64,000 nt of DNA from NCBI GenBank assembly GCA_001600635.1, contig BCKL01000009.1:737045-801044 (forward strand), in the 5' to 3' direction. Numbering within the stretch: position 1 is the first letter of the stretch; every line of letters begins with the position of its first letter. The notes under the pieces were generated by a model that ran no database searches, was not told the origin of the DNA, and saw only the letters and a list, made by a program, of their open reading frames with translations. Below, one piece after another: positions 27,693-58,986 of the stretch. The position numbers and the translations under genes are program-made. Origin of the DNA: Leucosporidium creatinivorum. Its lineage: Eukaryota; Basidiomycota; Microbotryomycetes; Leucosporidiales; Leucosporidiaceae.

Positions 27693-29197
27693 GCGAGGCG
27701 GAAGATGCAAGACATATGCAGTGCTGAAACCCGGAGATGGCGAGTGCGGTGCAGATTAAGAGAAGAGGAGCGACGACCAGCGGAGCGCGCTTGTTCGGCG
27801 CAGCGCCGGCGTTAGGCCACACGCTATTTTCTCGCTTCTCGCTCTTTGCTTGCTTCGCCTCTCTCACGCCTGCTCGTCATACACTATGCCTACCGCCACC
27901 GAGATGCAGGCTCTGCTCGTGGAGCGGTACCAGAACGAGACTGTTTCAAACTACGTCGCCGAGATCAGTGACCCGCCCGGTAAGAAGGAAGCCACGAGGA
28001 TGCTCAAGGTCCTTTCCTCCTTCGTCCAGCTCTACCGCCCTCCCAAACCCTTCTTTACGACAGTAAACGGGTCGCAAGGTCTTTGGGATGTGCTCTCGAC
28101 TCGGATGGAGCGCGCGCTCGCCTCGCTTCAGGCTGAGCAAGATGCGCACCTCTCTGGCCTCACGATACAAGGCGCGGAGAGGCTCCGTAGACATGTATAC
28201 GGACCATATCACAACAAACGACCTCTGACCGAGGTGAGTGGTAAAACACAGACTCTGGGAGCACTCCAGCTCAGCTCATCAACCGCCCGCTTCGCCGAGC
28301 AGCTATTGAGAGAGGGCCCCGACCGCTATGTTGAGGACAGCGGTAAGTCCGCTCCTTGACAGCACCCACACACCGAAGACTCACCGCCCTGTTGAACAGA
28401 CGCAACGGTGCATCAAAAGGTGTCCCTCGCGTGCAAGGAGATGGTGGCGCTCGTCGACTCGGTCGGGCAAATCGACTATGTATTACCCATTCTTTGGATT
28501 GGAAACCGAGATTGGTTGCAACTGAATCGCTGGCAGAAGATTAATGTGAGCTCTGGACGGCCACGTCGGTCCGAAGACGGAGGGCTTGCTCAGCGCCGAA
28601 GTCTCGGCTGACACCCCCTGCGCTCTTCTCCATGACTTGGACAGGTCGCTGTGGTGGCTAAAACCTCTCACGATGTATATTTACGCTCGACTCGACAGCT
28701 GGTTCGCTCGCTAACCCAGGTTCCACAACGTGCAGAAAGCCGAAGCGCTTGCTCGCCACCTTGAGTTTGAAACGAGACTAGCGGCAATCATGGGGAGCAT
28801 GGGACATCAACATGTACCCTCACTCTCGCCTAGGCAAGAACGCCGGAGCGGGGTATCGCAGGCCGAGCTTCGGGCGAGATGGGCGTGACAGCTTCGGGCG
28901 AGGTCAGCGTGAGCAGGGTAGGAGGATAGAAGGGAGTGCAAGGAAGGGATACGCGCACGAGCCCATCCTTTGTGGGTGACTTGCTCCGACTGCGTCAAGT
29001 AGCAAAGAAAGCTGGCGGGAAAGGAGAGCACGAGCGACGAGCGACGAGCGCCGAGCGTCTACTTCGCGACACAGCAATGTCGGCCGACACGACCTCGGAA
29101 TAAATGGTGATGCGTGTCAGATTACACCGCTCCACTCTGCTGCAGCTGGGCGATCTTGGCGTCGCTGTAGCCTAGCTCTCGCAGGACCTCGACGGTG
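27238..29197. repeat. Segmental duplication, copy 1 (partner at 57,339-59,319)
   Basis: A block of about 1.96 kb recurs in the same orientation about 30.1 kb downstream. It holds the 3' end of CFT2, all of family gene A, and the last 24 or so codons of the CoA-transferase. From 27,690 to about 29,000 the two copies keep a constant offset of 30,098 with no length changes and only scattered substitutions, in introns as well as exons. Outside that core, in the CFT2 part before 27,430 and in the CoA-transferase end, they differ at roughly one base in eight (my count by eye). Confidence 0.95.
27886..28888 (+). CDS. Unknown paralogous family, member A (intact)
   Basis: Not a family I recognise. 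Exons 27886-28342, 28400-28545, 28645-28674 and 28736-28888 join in phase to 261 aa. Exon 1 reads MPTATEMQALLVERYQ, SSFVQLYRPPKPFF, and ERLRRHVYGPYHNKRPLTE; exon 2 holds LPILWIGNRDWLQLNRWQKI; the 30-nt exon 3 gives VAVVAKTSHD; exon 4 ends HVPSLSPRQERRSGVSQAEL and RARWA. The same order, exon breaks and motifs occur in members C and D, so this plan is real even though no function is known. No signal peptide, membrane helix or known catalytic motif. A 36-nt segment (28234-28269) starts GTGAGT and ends CAG, sits at the position of intron 1 in member C, and is also in frame without a stop, so a 249-aa form is possible. Member B is its near-identical copy. Confidence 0.72.
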
Positions 29198-31152
29198 TGC
29201 TGTCCGAGAACGGGAGGGGGCCTCGTCACCTGCGTTCGAAAGAGGGTCAGGCGCCGTTGAGCTTGACCAGGATCATCACGAAAATCTCTTACCCTCATCT
29301 TTTGATTATTGTACGACACCGCCGGCGACAGCAGCTTGATCTTGCCCGCCCTCGGATGGTCCACCTCGGAGACAACGCCACGAGCGACAGCTTGAGGATG
29401 CGCGAACGTCTGTTCGATATTGTTAACGGGGGCGAATGGGAATCCAGCGCCTCGCATCTTTTCTAGCCACTCGGCAGTGGTGTGCTCGTGGAGAGCTTCG
29501 GTGAGGATGGGAATGAGCGCCGAGCGGTTTGTGACACGCGAGATGTTGGTTGAGTAGAGAGGGTCGACGGGCAAATCGGTGCGGGAGAGGATCTTGCAGA
29601 GCTTGACAAATTGGGAGTCTGAGCTCGACGAGGTCAGCGAGCGCGCCGAGAGAAGAGCGAGCAGCGACGGACCGTTTCCTGCTCCGATCATGACGAAGCC
29701 GTCCTTCGTTGAGAAGACCTCGTAGGGTACGATACTGCAGACAAATCTCGGATTAGCTGCGCCACCAGCAAGAGCGAGAGCGCGACGAAGTCCTACCTGG
29801 GATGAGCAGTCCCTTGCCGAGTTGCCTCCTGGCCGGCGATGAGGTAGTTGGAAGCCACGTTGGCGAGGGAGGCGATCTTGGGGGAAGCGAGAGTCAGCCA
29901 AAGTACATGTCTCGACGCCAACGGAGCTCACCTGAGAATCGAAAAGGTTGGCATCGATCCAAACGCCCTCGCCGGTCTGCGAGCGCGAGATGAGGGCAGC
30001 GAGGACGGCGCTCTTGAGGTAGAGACCGGTTGTGAGGTCGGTGATGGCGACTCCAACTTTGACGGGACTGCCTTCGGGCTCGCCGGTGATGTGCATGAGA
30101 CCCGCTTCAGCTTCGACTGGGAGACAGCAGGAGCAGGGGTCAGCCGAGCTCGTCGCCGAGCCAGAAGGAGAGCCAGCCGACTGCAAGTAGGCGGCAGCGG
30201 AGTAGGTTGAAAGAGGTGGAGCTTACTGATGACATCGTAGCTGTGGGTAGAGGACTTCGAGTCAACAGAGCTTCGAAGAGGAGCGAAAAGAGGGAGCGTA
30301 CCCAGGCGCGCTGGAGTAGGGTCCAGTCTGTCCGTAGCCTATAGTAGAAGGTGTCAGTTACGGCTTAATAATTCTTGAAAACGTCTCGTACCCGAGATCG
30401 AGGCGTAGATGAGTCTAAGAAGAGAGCAGGCGGCGAGTCAGCGCTCGGCGTCGAGGAAGGAAGCAAGCTCGCCACGCACCGAGGGTTGATCTCCTTGCAG
30501 GTCTCGTAGCTCAATCCAAGCTCAGCCAGCTTTCCGGGTACATAGTTCTCGACGAGCACATCTGCCTTGGCCACCAGTTCCTTGACGAGCGCCAAACCCT
30601 CGGGGCTCTTGAGATTGACGGTGACACTGCGCTTGCCTCGGTTGGCCTGGAGGAAGTAGGTGCTCTCGGGTGGGAGCTTGCTCCAGTCGTCGACACGCAG
30701 CTCGGGCTTCCCTGCTTTCGGCGATGAAGGAGGAGTCGGGGGGAGCTCGATCAAAGGAGCGCTCGGCGGGTTCCTGCAGCGCCAGACAGGTCAGCGAGCA
30801 GCAGGGAGACGAGAGGGTAACATCTATTACCATGCCCGAGTGTCGTCGCCTCGTGTAGGATGCTCAATCTTCCACACCTGTCAAAGGAGTGGGGCGGTTA
30901 GCTCCGTCGCTTCCTCCGATGAAGGCAATCTCAGCTTACATCTGCACCCAAATCTGCCAGCATCATTGTCGCATACGGTCCAGCCAATACACGAGTCAAA
31001 TCCAGCACTTTGATGCCCTTCAGCGGCGGCGGCATCTCTTTCAGCGGACGCGTCGAAACGAGCCGTGTAAAGGTGAGGTAGGTTGTAGTTGAGCGAGCAG
31101 AGGTGCATGCTAGTCGATCGAGGCCTCGAGTCGGCCAGCGCGCGAGCGACAT
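29122..31152 (-). CDS. Class III CoA-transferase, SUGCT-like
   Basis: CaiB/BaiF-family (class III) CoA-transferase, moving CoA between acyl carboxylates; closest in layout to mitochondrial succinyl-CoA:glutarate CoA-transferase. The N-terminal 40 residues ([20 protein letters not shown]...) are Arg/Ser/Thr-rich and fit a mitochondrial targeting peptide. Next come [20 protein letters not shown] and [45 protein letters not shown] and [20 protein letters not shown]; the Asp in [13 protein letters not shown] is the family's catalytic residue. It continues [19 protein letters not shown] and ends [20 protein letters not shown]. About ten short exons. The TAA at 29122 lies inside the duplicated block, so a copy of the last 24 codons exists at 59.25 kb. 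Divergent from the second SDR. Confidence 0.85.
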
Positions 31153-31456
31153 CTTGTTTGAGCGAGATGAAGGGCGAAGGAGAAGGAGCTCCGGCCGGCG
31201 ACCTCAGCCGAAACCGACACAACCCCTTTTTGCTTCCTGGTTACTTCTCACTTGCCTCTGAGCTCGACTCGTAAATCGTTCGAGGGACAAAGTGTTTCCA
31301 GGCTAGCCAGCGCCACGTTGATCGACTAGTACCCCTCGGCGATGCTTGAGCGCCTCCGTCAGTTCGCAACTTGCGCTCGAAGTTGAGGAGCAGATCCTCT
31401 TGGAGCACTTCTCTGCTTCCCATCAAACACCACCTCGACCAACTCAACTTTATATC

Positions 31457-32488
31457 ATGTCTACTGCTGTGCTACAAGGAGCTGGAGGATCCCTCGGATC
31501 GCACTTCGCTCGCCATCTGCTCTCGCGCACCTCTCTCAACGTTGTCGCAACTTCTCGCAACCCGGATGCCGCTCGCAAGGCCATCCTCGACGGGCAGGGA
31601 CTCGATGAGAAGCGTCTCACTGTGCTCAAGGTTGATGTCAAGGAGGAGCGTACTATCGAGGAGGCTGCGAAGGAGGTTGAGAAGCGCTTCGGCGACGCCA
31701 GTTTGAGGTTGCTCCTGAACGTCTCGGGTTGCGTGAGTCGTGCTGCAGCCTCTTATTTGTCGTCCGAGATTAAGAAGCTCAGGCGACTGTCCTTTATTAC
31801 AGCTGCACGTCGACAAGTCGATTCAGCAGGTCAAGCTCGAGGAGCTGATGGAGTCGTATCAGGTGTGTTCGATAGTAGGCAATTTTACCACTCGACACTC
31901 AGAGCTAACATATCGCTCTGAACCCATAGCTCAACACCTTCGGCCACCTCCTCACGTTCAAGCACTTCCTCCCCCTGCTTCCCAAGACCGCCGACGTCCG
32001 CAAGGCCAAGGAGGCTGGCGAGAAGGACCTCGCAAATGGAGCAGTACCAGAAGGCATGAGCGTGCTCGCTTCTCTGACCGCTCGCGTGGGTAGCATTGGC
32101 GACAATACCAAGGGAGGGTGTGTTCAATTCTGGCGCCGAGCTCCTCGAGGGCGTTTCTTCCGCCGTGCAAGATCTGACTCTCTCTCCTTCACTTCAAAGC
32201 TGGGTCGGATATCGCAGCTCCAAGGCCGCCACCAACCAGGTCATCCTCACCCTTCAGCGCGAGCTCGAGCTGAAGGCCACCCCTTCCATCGCCGTCGCTC
32301 TCCACCCCGGCACCGTCGTCGAGACCAACCTTTCTTCAAAATGGACGAACCCTAAGGATGTGGGCAAAAAGAGTGGAGTCTTCCGCGCAGAGGACTCGAC
32401 TGGAAAGCTGCTGGACGTGATTAAGGGACTGAGCGCCGAGGATGGAGGAAGGTTCTTGGACTGGGCGGGCAAGGACATCAAGTGGTAG
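31457..32488 (+). CDS. Short-chain dehydrogenase, C-factor-like
   Basis: NAD(P)-dependent SDR oxidoreductase of unknown substrate. Start MSTAVLQGAGGSLGSHFARH gives the GxxxGxG cofactor turn in a slightly altered form (GAGGSLGS). LRLLLNVSG takes the place of the NNAG strand, LNTFGHLLTFKHFLPLL is helix 4-5, MSVLASLTARVGSIGDN carries the strand with the active-site Ser, and WVGYRSSKAATNQVI supplies YxxxK intact. ALHPGTVVETNLSSKW is the PG motif. Four exons, about 265 aa; the exon break just before WVGYRSSK uses a CAAAG acceptor. Unlike the SDR at 18,969, the catalytic Tyr is kept. It is head-to-head with the CoA-transferase, about 300 bp apart, which may mean shared control but not necessarily a shared pathway. 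Confidence 0.88.
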
Positions 32489-32932
32489 TGGTACATAGTT
32501 GACCTGTAGATACGAACAAAATGATATACGAAGTCAATGTTGAGTCGGAGCTGTGAAGGCCTGCAGCGCACTTGGCGAGCAGACAGCTCGGCGCTGGCTC
32601 GGACTCGGTTCGCAAGCGTTAGAAACGAACATCGATGACTATTGTAGCTCTTCGCTACACAGCACTCTCTCTGGCGGCTCTCAAGACTAAACTGACGACT
32701 CCAGCTGGCTCGGCCGCCCTCTCGGCGTCGAAGCCCTCGAAGTCAGCGCCGAGCCAGCTCCGAAGCAGCATCTTGAACGCCAATGGAGAGACGGGGAGTA
32801 GCTAGAGCTCATTTGAAGGTCCTTAGCTCCCTCTGCCCGCCGCCCCAGCTCTGCAGGCTGATCCCTCGCTGCTCCTCATCTGCCAAACGCGCCGGCTTCA
32901 CCGCTCTTGCTCCCGCCTCATCTTCGCACAGC
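32489..32932. other. Intergenic, 444 bp
   Basis: 3' flank of the SDR and promoter of the YIPF gene. No coding frame or structured element recognised. Confidence 0.45.
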
Positions 32933-34221
32933 ATGTCGAGCCCAATCTTCGACATTGACAACCGGTCAAACGATAACCTCGCCTTCCAGAGTGAGTTTAC
33001 CACAGCCCTGCATAGCTACACGGTCAGCAGAGAGCTTACCAGCGCGCCTCCCCGTCTCGCTCCTCCAGACTTCGGCTCAACAACCATCAGCGCAGATGTA
33101 CCGAGCGGGCGCATCTCTCCTTCAGCTTCGCCCAACATGCGTGCTTCTGCTGGCCTCTACGATGCTGAGCAGCGGTTCCAGAGCGGTCTCAACGGCGCGA
33201 CCAAGTCGGGAGGCGTGCTCAACCTTGACTTCTGTGCGTTGAGCAGGCCGCAGCTGCAGCAGAGCAGCTCTGCAGCGATACAGCAAGGCTGACCGTAGCT
33301 TGCACCTGACAGACACGGGCTACTTTGACGTCGACACGCTCACGGTGCTGACGAGGTGTTGGAAGACGCTCCTCCCTCGCGAGAATTACGTCGAAGAGGT
33401 GCTCAGCGGTGTCCCAGATCTCTACGGTACGTCCATCGCCCTAAAGCTGTGCTCCCAGGGCTAAGCTGACCCTTCCCTCGACGCTCGCAGGCCCGTTCTG
33501 GGTTCCCACCACCCTCATCTTCTCGCTCTTCCTCACTTCGTCCCTCTCCACCTCTATCACCGCCTACCTCGATGGAGACTCGTACACCTACGACTTCACC
33601 CGCCTCGGAGCTGCCGTGTCTCTCGTGTGAGCTTCAAGAGTTCGACGGCAGCGCGACGGAGTAGCTGATCCCCACTTCTCCACTGCAACAGCTACGCCTA
33701 CTCGCTCGGCCTGCCTCTGATCGTCTGGGCTGCTCTCAAGTACTGGGCAGGCTCGACCGAACGCTCGCCCGTCGAGATCGTCTCGCTCTACGGCTACTCG
33801 GCGACGGTTTGGATCCTCACCTCGGTGCGTCTCCTGCTCATCCCTTGCGCTATTGAGCGCTGCTGGGAACCTTGCTAAACTCATCTACTCGCCTACACAG
33901 TGGCTCACTCTCCTCCCCTTCGCCTCCCTCCGCCTCTTCCTCTCTTTCGCCGCAACCGGCCTCTCCCTCTTCTTCCTCACCCGCAACCTTTACCCCGTCA
34001 TCAGCACCGCACCCAACGTCTCCGCCCGCCTTCTCATCGTCGGCGTAGCGGCTCTGCACCTCATCATGGGCATGGCCCTCTGGTGGGGATTCCTGGCGGG
34101 AGGGAAGGGCGCACTTCACACCCCGACGCTCGGCAGTGGGAATGGTGCGAGTGGTGGAGCTGGGACGGGAGGGGAGATGGATGATCCTGCTGGTGATGCG
34201 TTGAGGAGGTGGCTGTTCTAA
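32933..34221 (+). CDS. Yip1-domain Golgi membrane protein (YIPF1/2-like)
   Basis: Five-pass membrane protein of the Yip1/YIPF family, which acts in ER-Golgi and Golgi traffic with Rab GTPases. Start MSSPIFDIDNRSNDNLAFQ, a polar N-terminus, then the diagnostic YFDVDTLTVLTRCWKTLLPR and VPDLYGPFWVPTTLIFSLFL, which match human YIPF1/YIPF2 almost residue for residue (YFDVDT, PDLYGPFW). Helices follow at YAYSLGLPLIVWAALKYW, EIVSLYGYSATVWILTSWL (the GYS motif), ASLRLFLSFAATGLSLFF, and LIVGVAALHLIMGMALWWG. The tail is Gly-rich and ends RRWLF. Seven exons, about 300 aa. Converges with the next gene on minus, leaving about 190 bp between stops. Confidence 0.88.
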
Positions 34222-34409
34222 GCTCGCGTAGAGAAGCTGGCTCTCGGTCGGCTCGGCCGAAGGGGTGGAACTGAAGAAGAGCTATGTTCATTTCGAGCTT
34301 TGTGCTATGGGAGAGGAGAGAAAGTATGATGGGATACTGCTACAGGAGTCGAAGAGTCCATATGGTGCTGCTTTGCGTTTCGTTTTCGTTCGACTTCGGT
34401 CGGCAATGT

Positions 34410-36000
34410 TCAAGCCAAGGCGACGGGAGGGTTGTCGAAGGCGGGGGCAGTGGCGGGAGTCGTGCCGACGTTGGCGGCGGCGGGACCAGGCGAGACGGTC
34501 ATGAAGGTGTCCATGAGCTCGCGGAAGTCCTCGGCCTCCCTGTGTTGGGTAGAACGTCAGCAAGCATCCGACCCTTCGCCGAGCTCGACTCACTTCCAGA
34601 GCATCGTCTCGAGGAAGTTGAAACCGATGGTCACCTCCCTCTGCTCTCCCTCATCTCCACCGCCGGTCGCCCTCACCTTCCTAGCATCAGCGCGAGGGGC
34701 GACGTCAATCTCGACACAAGGAGGGAGCGTATCGGCGTCGATCTTGACGCCGCCGAGAGGCTTGGGGTGGTCGTCGAGGTTGTTGGGCGAAGAGAGCGGG
34801 GCCGACTGAGCGGGAGCCCAGAAGGGGGTAGAGGTGCCACGAGTGCGGAAGTAGCGGACGGTGAGGACCGAGGCAGGGTCGCTGATGTAGAGCGCCGAGA
34901 TGGGGAATCCCTGGTCAAGACGAGGGTCAGCCTCCACTTCACTACGATGGCGAGCAGGTACATACCTTGTACGAGGGGAAGGGAGCTCCGAGGAGAGGCT
35001 CGCTGGTCGACCTGGTGCGCTCGAGCTTGAGATTCTTCTCGCGCTCGTTGGTCTTGGTCCTCGAAAGGCTGAGCTTGTTCTCGCCCTCGGCTCCATCCTG
35101 CACCGCGGTATCATCGCTCTTCTTGAAGACATTCTTGACCGACTGGACGAAGCCCTTGACTCCGCTGGATCCTTCGTTCGCCGAGGGAGAACCAGGCGCT
35201 TGAGCTCCGATGGGCTCCTCATCGTCGGCGATGGCGGAGTCGCCAGCCGTCTGAGTGGGAGGTACGCCGACCGCGGAGGCAAACCCTGCACCAGGAGCTC
35301 CCGAGGCGGCTGAGAAGGACTTGCGGCTGTTGCTGGTGCCGCCGAAGAGGGAGAGGCGACGAGCGGGCGCGGCGGGCTCCTTCTCGAGGGCAACGCAGCG
35401 AGGCGATCCCGTGCGATCGAGGATGAAGACGAGTTGTTTGTTCTGTAGTAGAGCCGCCTCGTCAGGCTTCCCGGTCTCTCTATCCGACTACAGCCCCTGG
35501 CCGAGCGAGCAGCGACGAGCGGAAGTGAACTCACGGCGGTGACCCAAAGCGTGCCGTCCATCACCCACTCCTCCTTGGGCTGCTCGACAGTCTTCTTGCC
35601 CTTGCGAAGCGCTCCATCCTGCCACACGAGGACCCTCGCCTCGACTTTGCCCCACGTCCTCCAATCGCCCTTCTTGGTGTTGGGAGCGTCGATCTGCTTT
35701 TCGCCCTCGACTCCCTGGGAGGTGCGAAGCTGACTGAAAGCAGTAGCAGTCGCTTGGTGAGCAGCCTCTCCGTTGGTGCTAGTGGTGAGGACGGACGAGT
35801 CGTCGTCACCGGCGCTCGTCGAGGCGGCGAGGGGCGAAGAGGTGTGCTTGTGGGCCTCCCTGACTGCAGCGGGAGGAGACGAGGGAGGAGGGTACACTGG
35901 TTGAGTGAGGAAGTCGGCCTGTAGGTCGGGAGAAGCACGGGACAGTCAGTGCGAGCTCTTGGGATGAAGGGAAGCGAGCGAGCAGGCGACTACTCACCAT
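34410..36000 (-). CDS. Unrecognised acidic/Ser-rich protein
   Basis: Family not recognised. Five exons; the start codon ATG (36000-35998) stands alone, immediately followed by an intron with donor GTGAGT. Exon 2 continues ADFLTQPVYPPPSSPPAAVR. A folded stretch DWRTWGKVEARVLVWQDGAL, WVMDGTLWVTA, NKQLVFILDRTGSPRCVAL is followed by about 150 disordered Ser/Pro/Gly residues, FVQSVKNVFKKSDD, then a second folded part: PISALYISDPASVLTVRYFR and EVTIGFNFLETMLWKEAEDF. The alternating beta pattern at both ends, separated by a disordered insert, could be a split PH-like domain, but this is only a guess from pattern. No signal peptide or membrane segment. About 475 aa. Confidence 0.68.
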
Positions 36001-36710
36001 GGTAGTAGGTGCTGGGGAGGGCTGTTACGGATGTGTAGTGAGCTGTGCTGGGTGTCTCCCCGCTCTGAGGCTGGTGTGGTGGGAGGGAGAAGAGCGAGAT
36101 CAACTTTCAGGCAGCTGACCCCCACCTTCGCTTGAGCTCTACGAATCTTGGGCCTTCACGTGATGTCGTGCGTGCGCTTGCGTCGCACTGGCGAGTCTTC
36201 TGACATGCTCATCCTCTGCAGCTTCTTACCGCTCGCTGTACCCTCTCAAGCTTTCGCTGCGAATGCTCCTGAACGCCACTCTTCCCCCCTCGTGCGAAGC
36301 GCTCCTCGTCGTCCAAGTTCTGTAGGCTACTAGAGCGGATTCAGAATCTCCGGGAAGCTTGCAGACTCTGCCCGAAATAGCAGGTCGAACTCTGAGACGG
36401 CGATCTTGCAGCTCAAGGCTCGGCGCTGGCTCGTCCTCTCGGTCCTTGACTCGGCGCAAGCAGAGTTCTTAGGCGCGAAGTGGCTGCAGCCCAAGCTTCC
36501 ACCGAGTCTCTCCGTTGCTCGGCTGACGCCGTCGCTGTTTCCCTGCCCTGGTCTCTCCCCTCGCAGAGCATCGCCGAAGTCGAGCAGAGCGAAAGTGAGT
36601 GTCGAATCGTTCCAGCCAAGCTACAGAGGAGCTTCAAAGCCGGTCCATCGATCACCTATAGGCTTCGAAGATCAGCAATGGGCGAAAGAGCTCGAGAGAA
36701 CAGCAAGAAC
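36001..36710. other. Intergenic, 710 bp
   Basis: Upstream region of the unknown gene starting at 36000 (minus) and 3' flank of the F-box-like gene (minus). Only overlapping low-quality open frames are seen. No RNA gene or repeat recognised. Confidence 0.45.
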
Positions 36711-37892
36711 TCACCACGGCTCGAAGAAGCGCTCCCAGTCGAGCAGCTCGTCTTGTCCCTGCCATACCAAGCGGTAGTTCAACGATCCTCCTCGAGCTTC
36801 CATCACTTCTCGGAGCTTCTCAACGCCTTCAATCAATAAGCCGCTTGCCATGTCTTGAACAGGCTCGAGCGAAAGCTGTCGAAGGTCTCGAAGGCTCGGC
36901 GGGTCCTCGGCGAAGGCCATCAAGAGGGCTCCTGCGACCTCCTCTGTCCAAAGGTCCTTCGTCTGGTCCCCATCGTCGATAAAACTGCAATCTCCAATGC
37001 GAAGCATAGAGAGTGCGCTGGGTAGGGCGCGAAGAGTAGCTTCAATGAGGGTGGTCGGCTCCCAGTACGTGGGGTACAGTGCAAGTTTGCAGAGTCCTGT
37101 GAGCTTGGTCCAGGGAAAGTCGGCTTCGATTCCGAGCTCCGATCCTCGTTGGGCGAGCGAGAAAGCCTTGAGTTGCGGTGCGAGTTCGGACAGAGCCTGG
37201 TAGAAGTCGAGGTCGTTCCCGAGTTCATCGAGGTGGGAAGTGAAGCCTACGGAGAAGCTTCTGAGGTGGGGGAAGCTGGTGGGAGTGAACCAGTGTGTCC
37301 AGGTTGGGAACGACTCGACGAAGAGGTAGGGGTCGACGAGAGAGAGCGTGGAGAGCGAAGCGAAGGAAACGCCGGCGAGTTGTGGGATAATGGCGGCGGG
37401 GGACAAAGCTTCCACCGCACACCCCAAGTCGGACCAGCGCATGTGTAGCGTTTCGAGCTCTGCGAGAAGCAGAGGCTGTTAGCGATTGGCTCTATTGTCG
37501 GAGTTGGACATACGAGCGAGTGAGGGCAGATCCTGCGCATCAATACGCAGGCTAGAGATCCGAAGTTCTTGCACGCGGGTCGGTAGCTGGAGACCTGCGA
37601 GCTTCAAGTCGCTGATGTCCTCGCTGCGCGGTTCTCCTTCAGTCTCGCCGAGATGCACGCGCCTGACCGCCTCGCAAGCTCCCTCGACCGCCAGCGCAGC
37701 AGCAGCTTGATCCGAGTCCCTCGCAAACAGCTCATTGTACAGCTCCTTCCTCGCCAGCGCTCTCCAGGTCGAGTTGACGAGCGAGTAGGCGAGTGAGAGG
37801 TCGCAGCGTTGTCTGTGGGTGCCGAACGAGACGACGGGAAGGGAGAGCTTGATGATGGGATGCAGTAGCTCGGTGGGAAGTGGTGGGATCAT
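36711..37892 (-). CDS. F-box-like protein with LRR-type C-terminus
   Basis: Probable substrate adaptor of an SCF-type ubiquitin ligase, by pattern only. Start MIPPLPTELLHPIIKLSLPV gives the LPxELLxxI opening of an F-box, followed by DLSLAYSLVNSTWRALARKE, the second half of the box. The rest is repeated Leu-rich strands: LQLPTRVQELRISSLRIDAQ, VSFASLSTLSLVDPYLFVES, LPSALSMLRIGDCSFIDDG, LRDLRQLSLEPVQD. One intron (about 37437-37493, donor GTATGT, CAG acceptor) joins in phase. About 375 aa, ending DWERFFEPW. The ATG at 37892 is the only one in frame; the open frame upstream has no other. Such F-box/LRR genes are often amplified in basidiomycetes and a distant one lies at 62,648. Confidence 0.72.
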
Positions 37893-38364
37893 GTCGTGCT
37901 GTAGCGACTTGGCCGAGAGGCGAGGCGACGAGAGAGCCTCGAGATGGAGGGTATGCGACGTGCTTGGTAGACCTTCGAGGAGGGCGAGAGGTGCTGAAGG
38001 TGTCGAGCTGTAGTCGAGTAGTGAGCTTTGATATCCTAGTGCCTCCCTGCGAGTCGAAAGCTGCAAGACGAGGTGATGGCGGGAGAGCAAGGAGCAAGTC
38101 GAGCCAGTGAGCGGGCTAAGTTGAGGGAAGTCGAAGCTCAACCAGGCGCTGCAAGCTTGCCCCAAGGCTCTACAAGATACAGCCTAGACTTGAAGGGCAC
38201 TCGACTGCTCTGCAGACTCCCCGCTGTTCGACTTCAGACTTTCGCAGCCGCGGTTCGGCGATGACTTTCAGCCTGTACTTTTCCCCCCAACTGGCTCCGG
38301 CAAATATGAGCATTCCACAGCTCCACCCCTCCAAACCCGAGCATCCCCTACTGTCTCTGCTTCT
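37893..38364. other. Intergenic, 470 bp
   Basis: Promoter side of the F-box-like gene and 3' flank of family member C (both on minus). Nothing else recognised. Confidence 0.4.
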
Positions 38365-39416
38365 CTACAGCTCCTCCCCGCCTGCCCACCGCGCCCTCAA
38401 CTCCATCTCCGAAACCCCCGTTCGACGGCTTTGGCGGGGTGTGAGGGAGGGTACATGGTGCCCGAGACTATGAAGGTGCTCGCGAAACAAGCTGGCCGCG
38501 TCTTCGCGAGCAAGTGCTTCTGCATTTATCTCCTGCAAGACGAGACGAAGGTCAGTCCGAGGCCAACTTGAAGGAAGCTCCTGCACTTCCACATCCGTTA
38601 CAGCTCACCTGAAAGTACCGCTTAGCTTCAAGCGCTACCTAATCAAGCAACAGCGATCACAGATTATGAAGGAAGGATCAGCAGCTGCCTCACCAAGAAG
38701 CTCGGCGTTGTTCGGCGCAGGCTTGTGAGCGGCCAGAGCAGCGCGGGGAGAAAGGCTAGAGCTCACGCATATCCTTTCCCACCAATTCAACTGAGCCCAG
38801 TCCCTGTGGCCAACAAAAAGGAGCGCCGAAGCCCTCTCCACCGTCTTTGCCGATTTGATCATCTTGCGATAGACGAAGGAGACCATTTCGAAGACGGCAC
38901 GCGCTGGACAGTAGTTCATTACGTCAGCCACATCGGAAGCGAGTGAACTGGATGCTCTTTGGGGCTCACTGCTGTCTCTCAAGGGCGCGGTCAAGCGCGC
39001 GTTGTTCGGCACAGCGCCGACTTGCAGAAGCTGTGTGGTCAGCACGGGGTCAGCCAGGGGTCGCGTGAAGAAGACACATGTACACTAACAATAGTGATAG
39101 GACGCCTAGCCCAATAGTTCCCCAATACATGGTTTCTGAGAACCTCGCGTTGTTTGATTGGCATCCCTCGCCAATCCTTGTCGTGGGCCTTGCGAAAGGC
39201 TTCCAGCTTTGTCTGTGCGTCGAGGGCAAGCTCTGCCCATTTGTGCTGCACCTCATACGAGCGAAAAAGAGGTCTTGGGCCGAGATACAGCTTGACGAAG
39301 GCCGAGCATTTGGTGATGAGCTCGGTCGTGTGCTCGTTCGTGGGCGGGTCGGCAGGCTCGACTATGAGGCTGCCCACGCGCGTCAAGGAGTAGTGTATCC
39401 TCAGCTCCTCCTCCAT
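38365..39416 (-). CDS. Unknown paralogous family, member C
   Basis: Relative of member A. Exons 39416-39090, 39030-38970, 38903-38767, 38638-38609 and 38532-38365 join in phase to 240 aa. Exon 1: MEEELRIHYSLTRVGSLIV, SAFVKLYLGPRPLFRSYEVQ, and REVLRNHVLGNYWARRPITI, matching the FVQLY..P, RRHVYGPY and RPLTE of A. Exon 3: VYRKMIKSAKTVERASALLF then VGHRDWAQLNWWERIC, matching IGNRDWLQLNRWQKIN. Exon 4 is 30 nt (VALEAKRYFQ). Exon 5 ends HVPSLTPRQSRRTGVSEMEL, RARWAGGEEL. Overall identity to A is low (I judge about a quarter), so conservation of exon breaks and the C-terminal motif is notable. It lies tail-to-head with member D. No function can be assigned. Confidence 0.72.
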
Positions 39417-39734
39417 TGGCTCAAGCAAAAAGATGGGAGACGAAGGAGAAGAAGAAGAGACGCCGAGGATGCGAACTCGGCGCTGCTTCCGCGGAGGGGG
39501 AGCGGAGTTATGAGCGCACGTGACCAACTACAGAAACTTGCGTGAAGGTTTGTTGTTGCCTCATTTGGCTCTTGAGCTGCATGGGAAAGCTGTTGGCGAC
39601 GCAAGACGTCGAGAAATACATCGCCCAGGTCCTGGCTGTCCTTGTCGGCGCTCACAAGCTTCGTAAACTAGCTCTCACTGCGACTCTCAGCAGTACATGA
39701 AAAATGAAACACTTTGGCTTCCATCTTGAACTGC

Positions 39735-41806
39735 TCAGCTACACCACTGCCTCCTCATCTCGTCCTGCCAAATCGCCGAGCTCCTCCTCACCCCTTCCGG
39801 CCTCCTTGCAGGATGGTGCAGATGATGAGCGAGCGAGTGGGGCTCGGGATAGTATTGATCCAGGTGCTTTCGAATGAGAGAAGGTCAGGTGTCGAGGGAG
39901 GAGAGTTCTGGGTCAGCTTGACGCTCGAGAGCTCGGCGCTCAGCGAAGGAGAGGAGACAGCGGTGAGGAACTCACCCGCTTGAGAGGGAAGAAGGCTTGG
40001 TACAAGACCTGGTATCGAGTGAAGCGGCGAAGGGCGCGAGAGAGTAGGCAAGCGTGCGGTCAAGAAGGGAATGGTCAGCGCTCGAATCGGCGCAAGCTCG
40101 GCGAAGACGTCGAGCCTCACCACCAGCTTCTGCCAACTAGTCAAGTTCTCCCATCCTTCCATATAAGCTTTATACACAATCGCGCATGTTTTGAGCTCGA
40201 GGTGATGCACTGAAGGGACCTTCATGAGGTGTCTTAACATTCCGAGCGCTCGCGCAGACCGAGAAGGGAAGTAGCGGTTAAGGCGAGCGCTGCTGCCGAT
40301 CCATTTCGAATAGGCTAAACGTAATGGGGCGACTACAAAAAGGCAGAGGAGCGTGCAAAACCCGTAGGAAACGTCACATGCCCTTAGGTCCAGGTGTTAA
40401 GTNNNNNNNNNNNNNNNNNNNNNNNNNNNNNNNNNNNNNNNNNNNNNNNNNNNNNNNNNNNNNNNNNNNNNNNNNNNNNNNNNNNNNNNNNNNNNNNNNN
40501 NNNNNNNNNNNNNNNNNNNNNNNNNNNNNNNNNNNNNNNNNNNNNNNNNNNNNNNNNNNNNNNNNNNNNNNNNNNNNNNNNNNNNNNNNNNNNNNNNNNN
40601 NNNNNNNNNNNNNNNNNNNNNNNNNNNNNNNNNNNNNNNNNNNNNNNNNNNNNNNNNNNNNNNNNNNNNNNNNNNNNNNNNNNNNNNNNNNNNNNNNNNN
40701 NNNNNNNNNNNNNNNNNNNNNNNNNNNNNNNNNNNNNNNNNNNNNNNNNNNNNNNNNNNNNNNNNNNNNNNNNNNNNNNNNNNNNNNNNNNNNNNNNNNN
40801 NNNNNNNNNNNNNNNNNNNNNNNNNNNNNNNNNNNNNNNNNNNNNNNNNNNNNNNNNNNNNNNNNNNNNNNNNNNNNNNNNNNNNNNNNNNNNNNNNNNN
40901 NNNNNNNNNNNNNNNNNNNNNNNNNNNNNNNNNNNNNNNNNNNNNNNNNNNNNNNNNNNNNNNNNNNNNNNNNNNNNNNNNNNNNNNNNNNNNNNNNNNN
41001 NNNNNNNNNNNNNNNNNNNNNNNNNNNNNNNNNNNNNNNNNNNNNNNNNNNNNNNNNNNNNNNNNNNNNNNNNNNNNNNNNNNNNNNNNNNNNNNNNNNN
41101 NNNNNNNNNNNNNNNNNNNNNNNNNNNNNNNNNNNNNNNNNNNNNNNNNNNNNNNNNNNNNNNNNNNNNNNNNNNNNNNNNNNNNNNNNNNNNNNNNNNN
41201 NNNNNNNNNNNNNNNNNNNNNNNNNNNNNNNNNNNNNNNNNNNNNNNGCGGGACTCGAGGCGAGTGAGCGGGAGAGCTACTTACTGGGAGTAGTTACGAG
41301 TTAAGCGCTTCTCCGTCGCAAGCTCCTACGCAGCGAATCCCATTGAAGACGGCTCGAAAGTCGGCCTCGAAGAGCTGCCCTTTCGGCGAGGGGGCAGAGA
41401 GTCATCAGCAATATGAAGTCAAGTTGACCAATAGCCTGTACATACTAGACTGCGGATCATCCAAAAACCTGACCATATACTCCTCCCAAAACTGCTCCCA
41501 CCGCTCGTGATACTTCGCCGAACCCCCTCCCTCGGCTCTATACACCCTCTGCAGAAGCACAAAATCCCACGAAGCGTGCGTCGCCCACCCGTGGATGAAT
41601 GGATCATTGCCCTTATACAGCGGAGCAACAAGGTCCCGCGCCCACTTGAGGATGCCGGCGAGGATTCTAAGATCCGTACTGCTGTAGTCGGGTGTGGGGG
41701 AGATGAGATCCCAGAGAGGCGTGGAGGCGTAGTGGTTGCTGAGGATTTGCTCGACGGCGCTTAACTTGTCCGGCCGCGCTGGAGCTTCTGGGACGACGCT
41801 GGTCAT
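39735..41806 (-). CDS. Unknown paralogous family, member D (interrupted by assembly gap)
   Basis: Third divergent family member. Exon 1 starts MTSVVPEAPARPDKLSAVEQ and continues LKWARDLVAPLYKGNDPFIH and HERWEQFWEEYMVRFLDDPQ, placed like the LY.GP.P.F and W...L part of A and C; its donor is GTATGT near 41,444. After the gap comes an exon ending YMEGWENLTSWQKLV (about 40,121), then a 33-nt exon (40008-39976, VLYQAFFPLKR) and a last exon (39866-39735) ending HHPARRPEGVRRSSAIWQDE, MRRQWCS. The last exon keeps the spacing of Arg pairs, Glu and Trp of the HVPSL...RARW motif but little else. The middle of the gene is hidden by 845 Ns, so I cannot say whether it is whole. Confidence 0.55.
40403..41247. 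other. Assembly gap (845 Ns)
   Basis: Run of 845 undetermined bases inside family member D. The length may be an estimate from paired reads rather than real. Any open frame that runs through it is an artefact. Confidence 0.99.
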
Positions 41807-57983: not shown

Positions 57984-58986
57984 ATGCCTACCGCCACCGA
58001 GATGCAGGCTCTGCTCGTGGAGCGGTACCAGAACCAGACTGTTTCAAACTACGTCGCCGAGATCAGTGACCCGCCCGGTAAGAAGGAAGCCACGAGGATG
58101 CTCAAGGTCCTTTCCTCCTTCGTCCAGCTCTACCGCCCTCCCAAACCCTTCTTTACGACAGTAAACGGGTCGCAAGGTCTTTGGGATGTGCTCTCGACTC
58201 GGATGGAGCGCGCGCTCGCCTCGCTTCAGGCTGAGCAAGATGCGCACCTCTCTGGCCTCACGATATAAGGCGCGGAGAGGCTCCGTAGACATGTATACGG
58301 ACCATATCACAACAAACGACCTCTGACCGAGGTGAGTGGTAAAACACAGACTCTGGGAGCACTCCAGCTCAGCTCATCAACCGCCCGCTTCGCCGAGCAG
58401 CTATTGAGAGAGGGCCCCGACCGCTATGTTGAGGACAGCGGTAAGTCCGCTCCTGGACAGTACCAGCGCACAGAATACTCACCGCCCTGTTGAACAGACG
58501 CAACGGTGCATCAAAAGGTGTCCCTCGCGTGCAAGGAGATGGTGGCGCTCGTCGCCTCGGTCGGGCAAATCGACTATGTATTACCCATTCTTTGGATCGG
58601 AAACCGAGATTGGTTGCAACTGAATCGCTGGCAGAAGATTAATGTGAGCTCTGGACGGCCACGTCGGTCCGAAGACGGAGGGCTTGCTCAGCGCCGAAGT
58701 CTCGGCTGACACCCCCTGCGCTCTTCTCCATGACTTCGACAGGTCGCTGTGGTGGCTAAAACCTCTCACGATGTATATTTACGCTCGACTCGACAGCTGG
58801 TTCGCTCGCTAACCCAGGTTCCACAACGTGCAGAAAGCCGAAGCGCTTGCTCGCCACCTTGAGTTTGAAACGAGACTAGCGGCAATCATGGGGAGCATGG
58901 GACATCAACATGTACCCTCACTCTCGCCTAGGCAAGAACGCCGGAGCGGGGTATCGCAGGCCGAGCTTCGGGCGAGATGGGCGTGA
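57984..58986 (+). pseudogene. Unknown paralogous family, copy B (nonsense-broken duplicate of A)
   Basis: Same length and exon plan as member A at a constant offset of 30,098, with identical splice sites. Codon 95 is TAA at 58,266-58,268 where A has CAA (TIQGAERL), ending the product after HLSGLTI. Other changes are few: a Glu to Gln in YQNQT, an Asp to Ala in exon 2, several in the intron after exon 1, and one base before the exon-3 acceptor. With the stop, only 94 residues would be made, without the W-rich and C-terminal motifs. Probably a recent pseudogene, or a strain-specific allele. Confidence 0.85.

Follow-up and report, generated by a model that had tools for sequence, protein, structure and literature searches.

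Genes A and C in the window (the whole stretch of 64,000 nucleotides analysed here, C9:737045-801044, from an assembly of 27.7 Mb in 63 contigs) and, less surely, gene D are, as judged from sequence comparison, part of a large, unnamed and fast-changing family with about 90 tail-bearing places in the genome. By the same kind of evidence A and C are plainly homologous members of one fungal multigene family, and what the members have in common is a body and not the C-terminal tail alone.

Gene A lies on the plus strand (27886-28888) and gene C on the minus strand (39416-38365), and the spliced reading of each gives five exons with GT..AG sites, intron phases 0,1,0,0 and a fourth exon of 30 nt. 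Gene A consists of exon 1 (27886-28233, 116 aa), exon 2 (28303-28342, phases 0/1), exon 3 with the core WIGNRDWLQLNRWQKIN (28400-28545, also recognised by the core profile), the micro-exon VAVVAKTSHD (28645-28674) and exon 5 (28736-28888), where the constant tail and the stop codon were placed with the help of a last-exon comparison. The corresponding parts of gene C are exon 1 (39090-39416, 109 aa), exon 2 (38970-39030), exon 3 with the core FVGHRDWAQLNWWERIC (38767-38903, core profile), the micro-exon VALEAKRYFQ (38609-38638) and exon 5 (38365-38532), which carries the constant tail, predicted by AlphaFold to have a helix-turn-helix shape, and the stop codon. The original prediction had placed three genes at 27,886, 38,365 and 39,735; the first position stands as the start of A on the plus strand, while C and D are on the minus strand, where 38365 and 39735 mark the 3' end of each gene. 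It had also described the genes as apparently unrelated at first sight, which does not hold for A and C, since BLASTP links their first exons at E 1e-17 (31% identity, single comparison); their last exons are 60% identical. A CoA-transferase family III gene (29122-30198, minus strand, Pfam E 2.1e-44) is located just downstream of A.

The family was followed in a set of 42 entries, one of which (M26) is a cut copy of another (M03), so that 41 distinct members remain. Each of 20 exon-1 segments, tested against a profile of the others, ranked above all 743 window decoys, 17 of them at E<=1e-4, and the remaining three were not significant by E-value (M06 0.079, M12 0.062 and D 0.013); this indicates the mutual likeness of the segments and not the correctness of their starts, because the choice from the reading frames was made by eye. 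Six members went into a core profile, which matched the coding strand of 24 of the 41 distinct members at E<1e-3, including 18 of the 35 outside its build set, with a best value of 0.065 on the opposite strand. A core query taken from one member on contig C5 gave 15 matches, all of them on C5 and all at 298-336 nt from a tail. Alignment A5, which comprises A, C and 11 crude models, several with starts trimmed by eye, has a whole-length mean column identity of 31%; its 13 models are of 215-276 residues and display, in this order, PFF and RPF motifs, the core WxGxRxWxxL....VVLxAxxY and the nearly constant tail.

The gene plan is less constant than was proposed. A shared arrangement with a 30-nt micro-exon is valid for A and C, but not as a family-wide rule or as a fixed plan, since, of the 24 distinct members whose core match is significant, 12 have a core that runs uninterrupted in one frame, a share that may be biased upward because split cores score lower. 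Five exons with a 30-nt micro-exon therefore do not define the family. The crude models contain a 30-nt piece in M06, M31, M32, M37 and M42 and a 51-nt piece in M11, M17, M18 and M35. These exon lengths are leads only: the script that built the spliced models left 9 of the 42 entries without a model and gave single-exon stubs for 4, and it missed both A (a stub) and C (joined to a piece of D and given an incorrect micro-exon).

The tail ends the protein and has the consensus SLGHxHVPSLSPRQARRSGVSExELRARWA. Its mean pairwise identity is 77% over 22 residues (40 of the 41 members; the duplicate of A, gene B, has the same tail as A and was left out of the 41). The motif HxHVPSLSPRQxRRxGVSxxELRARW at the protein end, of a type that the original prediction had assigned to all three genes, was found in A and C; in D, where the tail profile gives no significant match, the likeness is one seen by eye. 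Searching the 27.7-Mb genome with A and C gave 105 and 109 matches, respectively, most of them to the last exon, and a 31-residue tail query from a real member located at least 92 places, far beyond the family of three genes first supposed. As a lower bound, 25 of these 92 are on C5, 19 on C9, 15 on C36, 9 on C19 and 24 on nine other contigs; 80 have E<=1e-5, the weakest has E 0.07, and 91 have no stop within the match.

The tail places are clustered. Seventy-eight of the 92 are less than 20 kb from another and 37 less than 5 kb, while simple arithmetic gives about 11 within 20 kb if they were evenly scattered, and 68 of them are contained in 6.0% of the genome, in regions picked after the matches had been viewed. 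Neighbouring places within 15 kb have the same direction in 23 cases and the opposite one in 26. Four repeats of TTAGGG were not found anywhere in the assembly. Linkage to mating-type genes was considered and set aside, as STE3 matches are on C25 and Homeobox_KN is on C24 and neither contig has any of the 92 tails, an exclusion that is weak because contigs are not chromosomes. The matches to Homeobox_KN and to STE3, a fungal gene, are also the ground on which the assembly was taken as fungal. Two similar ORFs that resemble F-box genes occur near members on C5 (L069, C5:82500-92499), one being F-box-like at E 2.5e-4, which is under the cut-off, and the other having no match; F-box neighbours were rejected, this being the single F-box-like ORF of eight scanned and both ORFs beside C being negative. 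The latter ORFs (36711-38183, minus strand) appear leucine-rich by eye and have no Pfam match.

New copies come from tandem and segmental duplication, and decay is seen in at least one, B. Alignment and translation of gene B (57984-58986, plus strand) indicate a copy of A, 98.8% identical over 1160 nt, which agrees with its earlier description as a fresh duplicate, and an in-frame stop at codon 95 makes it a pseudogene as read. The two genes differ by three non-synonymous changes, one of which is the stop, one synonymous change and 10 non-coding ones. The whole duplication is about 2 kb long at 94.6% identity; it starts inside the ORF upstream of A, carrying the end of that ORF along, and terminates within the CoA-transferase family III gene. 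A broken copy separate from B had been reported, but it is B itself that is broken, and no further one was found in the window by tblastn, where a single match of 23 fell outside A-D (E 0.005). The stop-bearing duplicate, the clustering and a pair of D-type and C-type genes found in three places support the proposed birth and death of genes. In this pair, the D-type gene is just upstream of the C-type one in the window, on C38 (L042) and at C9:821-824 kb. D, C and a neighbouring gene may duplicate as one block, since the C-like gene on C38 seems, by eye, to have a copy of the ORFs that neighbour C on its downstream side (L028).

Gene D is probably a diverged, remote relative of the A/C family, to judge by its sequence. 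The start of its exon 1 was placed at 41444-41806 on the minus strand (121 codons used; the true end is uncertain). A run of 845 N inside the gene, between its first and third exons (40403-41247), is either an assembly gap or a withheld stretch, and because of it exon 2 is not visible. Part of exon 3, with LTSWQKLV before a GT donor read by eye, was recognised by its match to M10 (40121-40234, minus strand); a 33-nt micro-exon, VLYQAFFPLKR, with splice sites read by eye (39976-40008, minus strand) occupies, also by eye, the place corresponding to the 30-nt micro-exon of A and C; and the last exon (39735-39866, minus strand), which resembles the family tail by eye, has a degenerate tail ending in WQDEMRRQWCS. 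The exon-1 resemblance by which, among other features, D had been grouped with A and C is not seen by BLASTP (E 0.26 and 0.24) and is marginal by profile: a profile of the other 19 exon-1 segments places D at the top of 744 sequences (E 0.013, best decoy 0.12), and when A, C and M08 are left out of the profile as well, D scores 0.033 and the best decoy 0.052. Neither the family tail profile nor the core profile finds D significantly. Exon 3 has 50% identity over 26 residues to the core of M10, a member with a standard tail (L022, on C8), at E 3e-5 in a small set, the loci retrieved, and, for the start of exon 1, a relative exists at C9:821438-821752 (E 3.7e-13). A profile expected to link the three genes above chance thus does so strongly for A and C and marginally for D.

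The absence of a described family with these features is supported as far as the collections searched extend. No Pfam match was significant, PHROGs gave nothing convincing (best E 0.0091, in 1 of 13 models), PDB sequences gave nothing convincing overall and nothing at E<=10 for the 13-member profile, and no such family is named in the open-licence PMC literature. Viral and prokaryotic collections contained 30 and 38 pattern stretches, none of them confirmed by tblastn, in searches that may omit records near the own genome. The family may be known in fungal proteomes as unnamed orphans. With gene C alone as query, residues 18-84 matched 14 PDB sequences, every one a viral RNA polymerase, the best at E 7e-4. 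These matches were taken as chance because nothing in PDB was recovered at E<=10 with the 13-member profile; a profile made from 40 tails, also compared with PDB, covers the tail and not these residues.

The proteins have a pI of 8.6-10.2 in all 13 models, and the mean charge of 40 tails is +3.15. The hydropathy limit for a stretch of 19 residues is 1.6. In 11 of the 13 models no such stretch exceeds it; M32 (1.88), where the hydrophobic stretch may be an unspliced intron, and M10 (1.67) do. A crude hydropathy over 12 residues at the N-terminal starts, computed with the signal peptide of classical secreted effectors in view, peaks below 1.5 in 19 of 20, which thus have no strongly hydrophobic start, and at 1.84 in M29. 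AlphaFold predicted C exon 1 to be helical (pLDDT 64, model built on 2-3 sequences) and C exon 5, modelled with two sequences, to form a long helix and then short helices at 32-38 and 42-50 around GVS, with a mean pLDDT of 77 and, for the blocks of the short helices, of 87 and 81. Fold searches with both models found nothing in PDB at E<=0.001. S-adenosylhomocysteine hydrolase, matched over a short stretch and named in 47 of the 50 displayed fold matches of the tail model, was rejected as a tail relative (best E 1.8): many of the matches are redundant chains of one enzyme, which is missed when the 40-tail profile is run against PDB sequences at E<=10.

In the tails the codons vary but the residues are conserved, arginine being encoded by AGR and CGN, leucine by TTG and CTN and serine by TCN and AGY (40 of 41 tails). 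Third bases at fourfold sites agree in 51% of 7008 tail comparisons, where composition predicts 29-40% in seven of eight codon blocks and 55% in the eighth, and one alanine site is GCT in 27 of 28; because of this agreement above expectation in seven blocks and of the GCT site, the tails are short of saturation and may have undergone some homogenisation or conversion. The dN/dS values for tail and exon 1 are about 0.10 and 0.37 in M03/M09, about 0.17 and 0.28 in C/M08, about 0.63 and 0.71 in M38/M39 (6 tail changes) and about 0.98 and 0.29 in the young pair M05/M21 (4 tail changes). On these sequences the tail is clearly slower than exon 1 only in the two older pairs, M03/M09 and C/M08, of the four, and exon-1 dN/dS is below 1 in all four, values that do not demonstrate positive selection on the body. 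M38 and M39, in tandem (L036, C9:394-397 kb), have a dS of 0.08 in the tail and 0.44 in exon 1, a difference, based on few sites, that would fit homogenisation of the 3' end. The commonest codons for tail Ala-Arg-Arg-Ser spell GCTCGGCGCTCG. In the whole window CTCGGCGC and its reverse complement are counted 53 times, against 7.6 expected from dinucleotides, and by eye they are also present in introns.

The pattern of conservation, a constant tail on a variable body, suggests that these basic, mostly helical proteins may combine a docking tail with a recognition body, a mechanism to which we assign a probability of about 0.35 and in which partner and ligands are putative. The tail, with its predicted helix-turn-helix and a net charge near +3, would dock every member onto one shared partner, either a protein complex or a nucleic acid; the varied helical body might recognise different ligands, and gene turnover would renew the set of ligands recognised. 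The same helix-turn-helix, with its high block pLDDT, could instead touch DNA or RNA directly in a family of regulators whose body dimerises or senses. This is consistent with the basic pI and positive tail, with weak matches of 5 of 40 tails to AbiEi_4 (best E 0.011, the best of any Pfam match) and with a MarR and a Rex regulator at ranks 30 (E 6.3) and 45 (E 7.7) of the weak fold matches, but the AbiEi_4 and fold matches are all non-significant and the putative recognition helix hardly varies, which would give all members a single site; such regulators are unlikely.

That the genes are an ordinary lineage-specific family, whose copies drift after duplication and have no special recognition role, is a doubtful but possible reading: besides the exon-1 dN/dS values, which leave positive selection without proof, the tail is no more constrained than exon 1 in two of four pairs and one copy carries a stop, whereas a constant tail against a variable body over about 90 places calls for a reason. 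The many clustered copies might also go back to a mobile element that distributed the tail sequence over the genome, as its cargo or its remains, and long ORFs that look by eye like a Copia-type retrotransposon do adjoin two members on C19 (L078 and L079, C19:569500-583500). Such an origin is very improbable, as A, B and C have kept their introns, unlike retrocopies, 29 of 33 crude models contain introns too, the A/B duplication takes with it the end of a neighbouring ORF, the tail residues are kept despite codon change, and no Pfam domain is significant. The docking tail and recognition body could further be seen as an intracellular recognition repertoire of about 90 genes, immune-receptor-like in its constant docking tail, renewed helical sensing body, clustering, duplication and decay and unrelated in sequence to described receptor families; we regard this extension as quite unlikely.

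Expanded, clustered and fast-changing families are already known as a kind, and the addition here is an unusually constant C-terminal tail. As this tail is common to about 90 places and undescribed in the libraries searched, its binding target would explain many unannotated genes together. AbiEi_4 (Pfam PF13338), the regulator domain of the AbiEi antitoxin, is the described domain that some tails weakly resemble; it differs in being bacterial, and none of seven chosen tails matched it on rescan at E<=2. The AbiEi_4 motif, moreover, has an N-terminal position. Recognition repertoires can have such a design of unchanging tail and changing body, and KRAB zinc fingers and ANK-PRANC proteins are families with a constant module and a variable body, which the present family would resemble, by analogy alone, in joining a diversified recogniser to one constant docking module in many copies.
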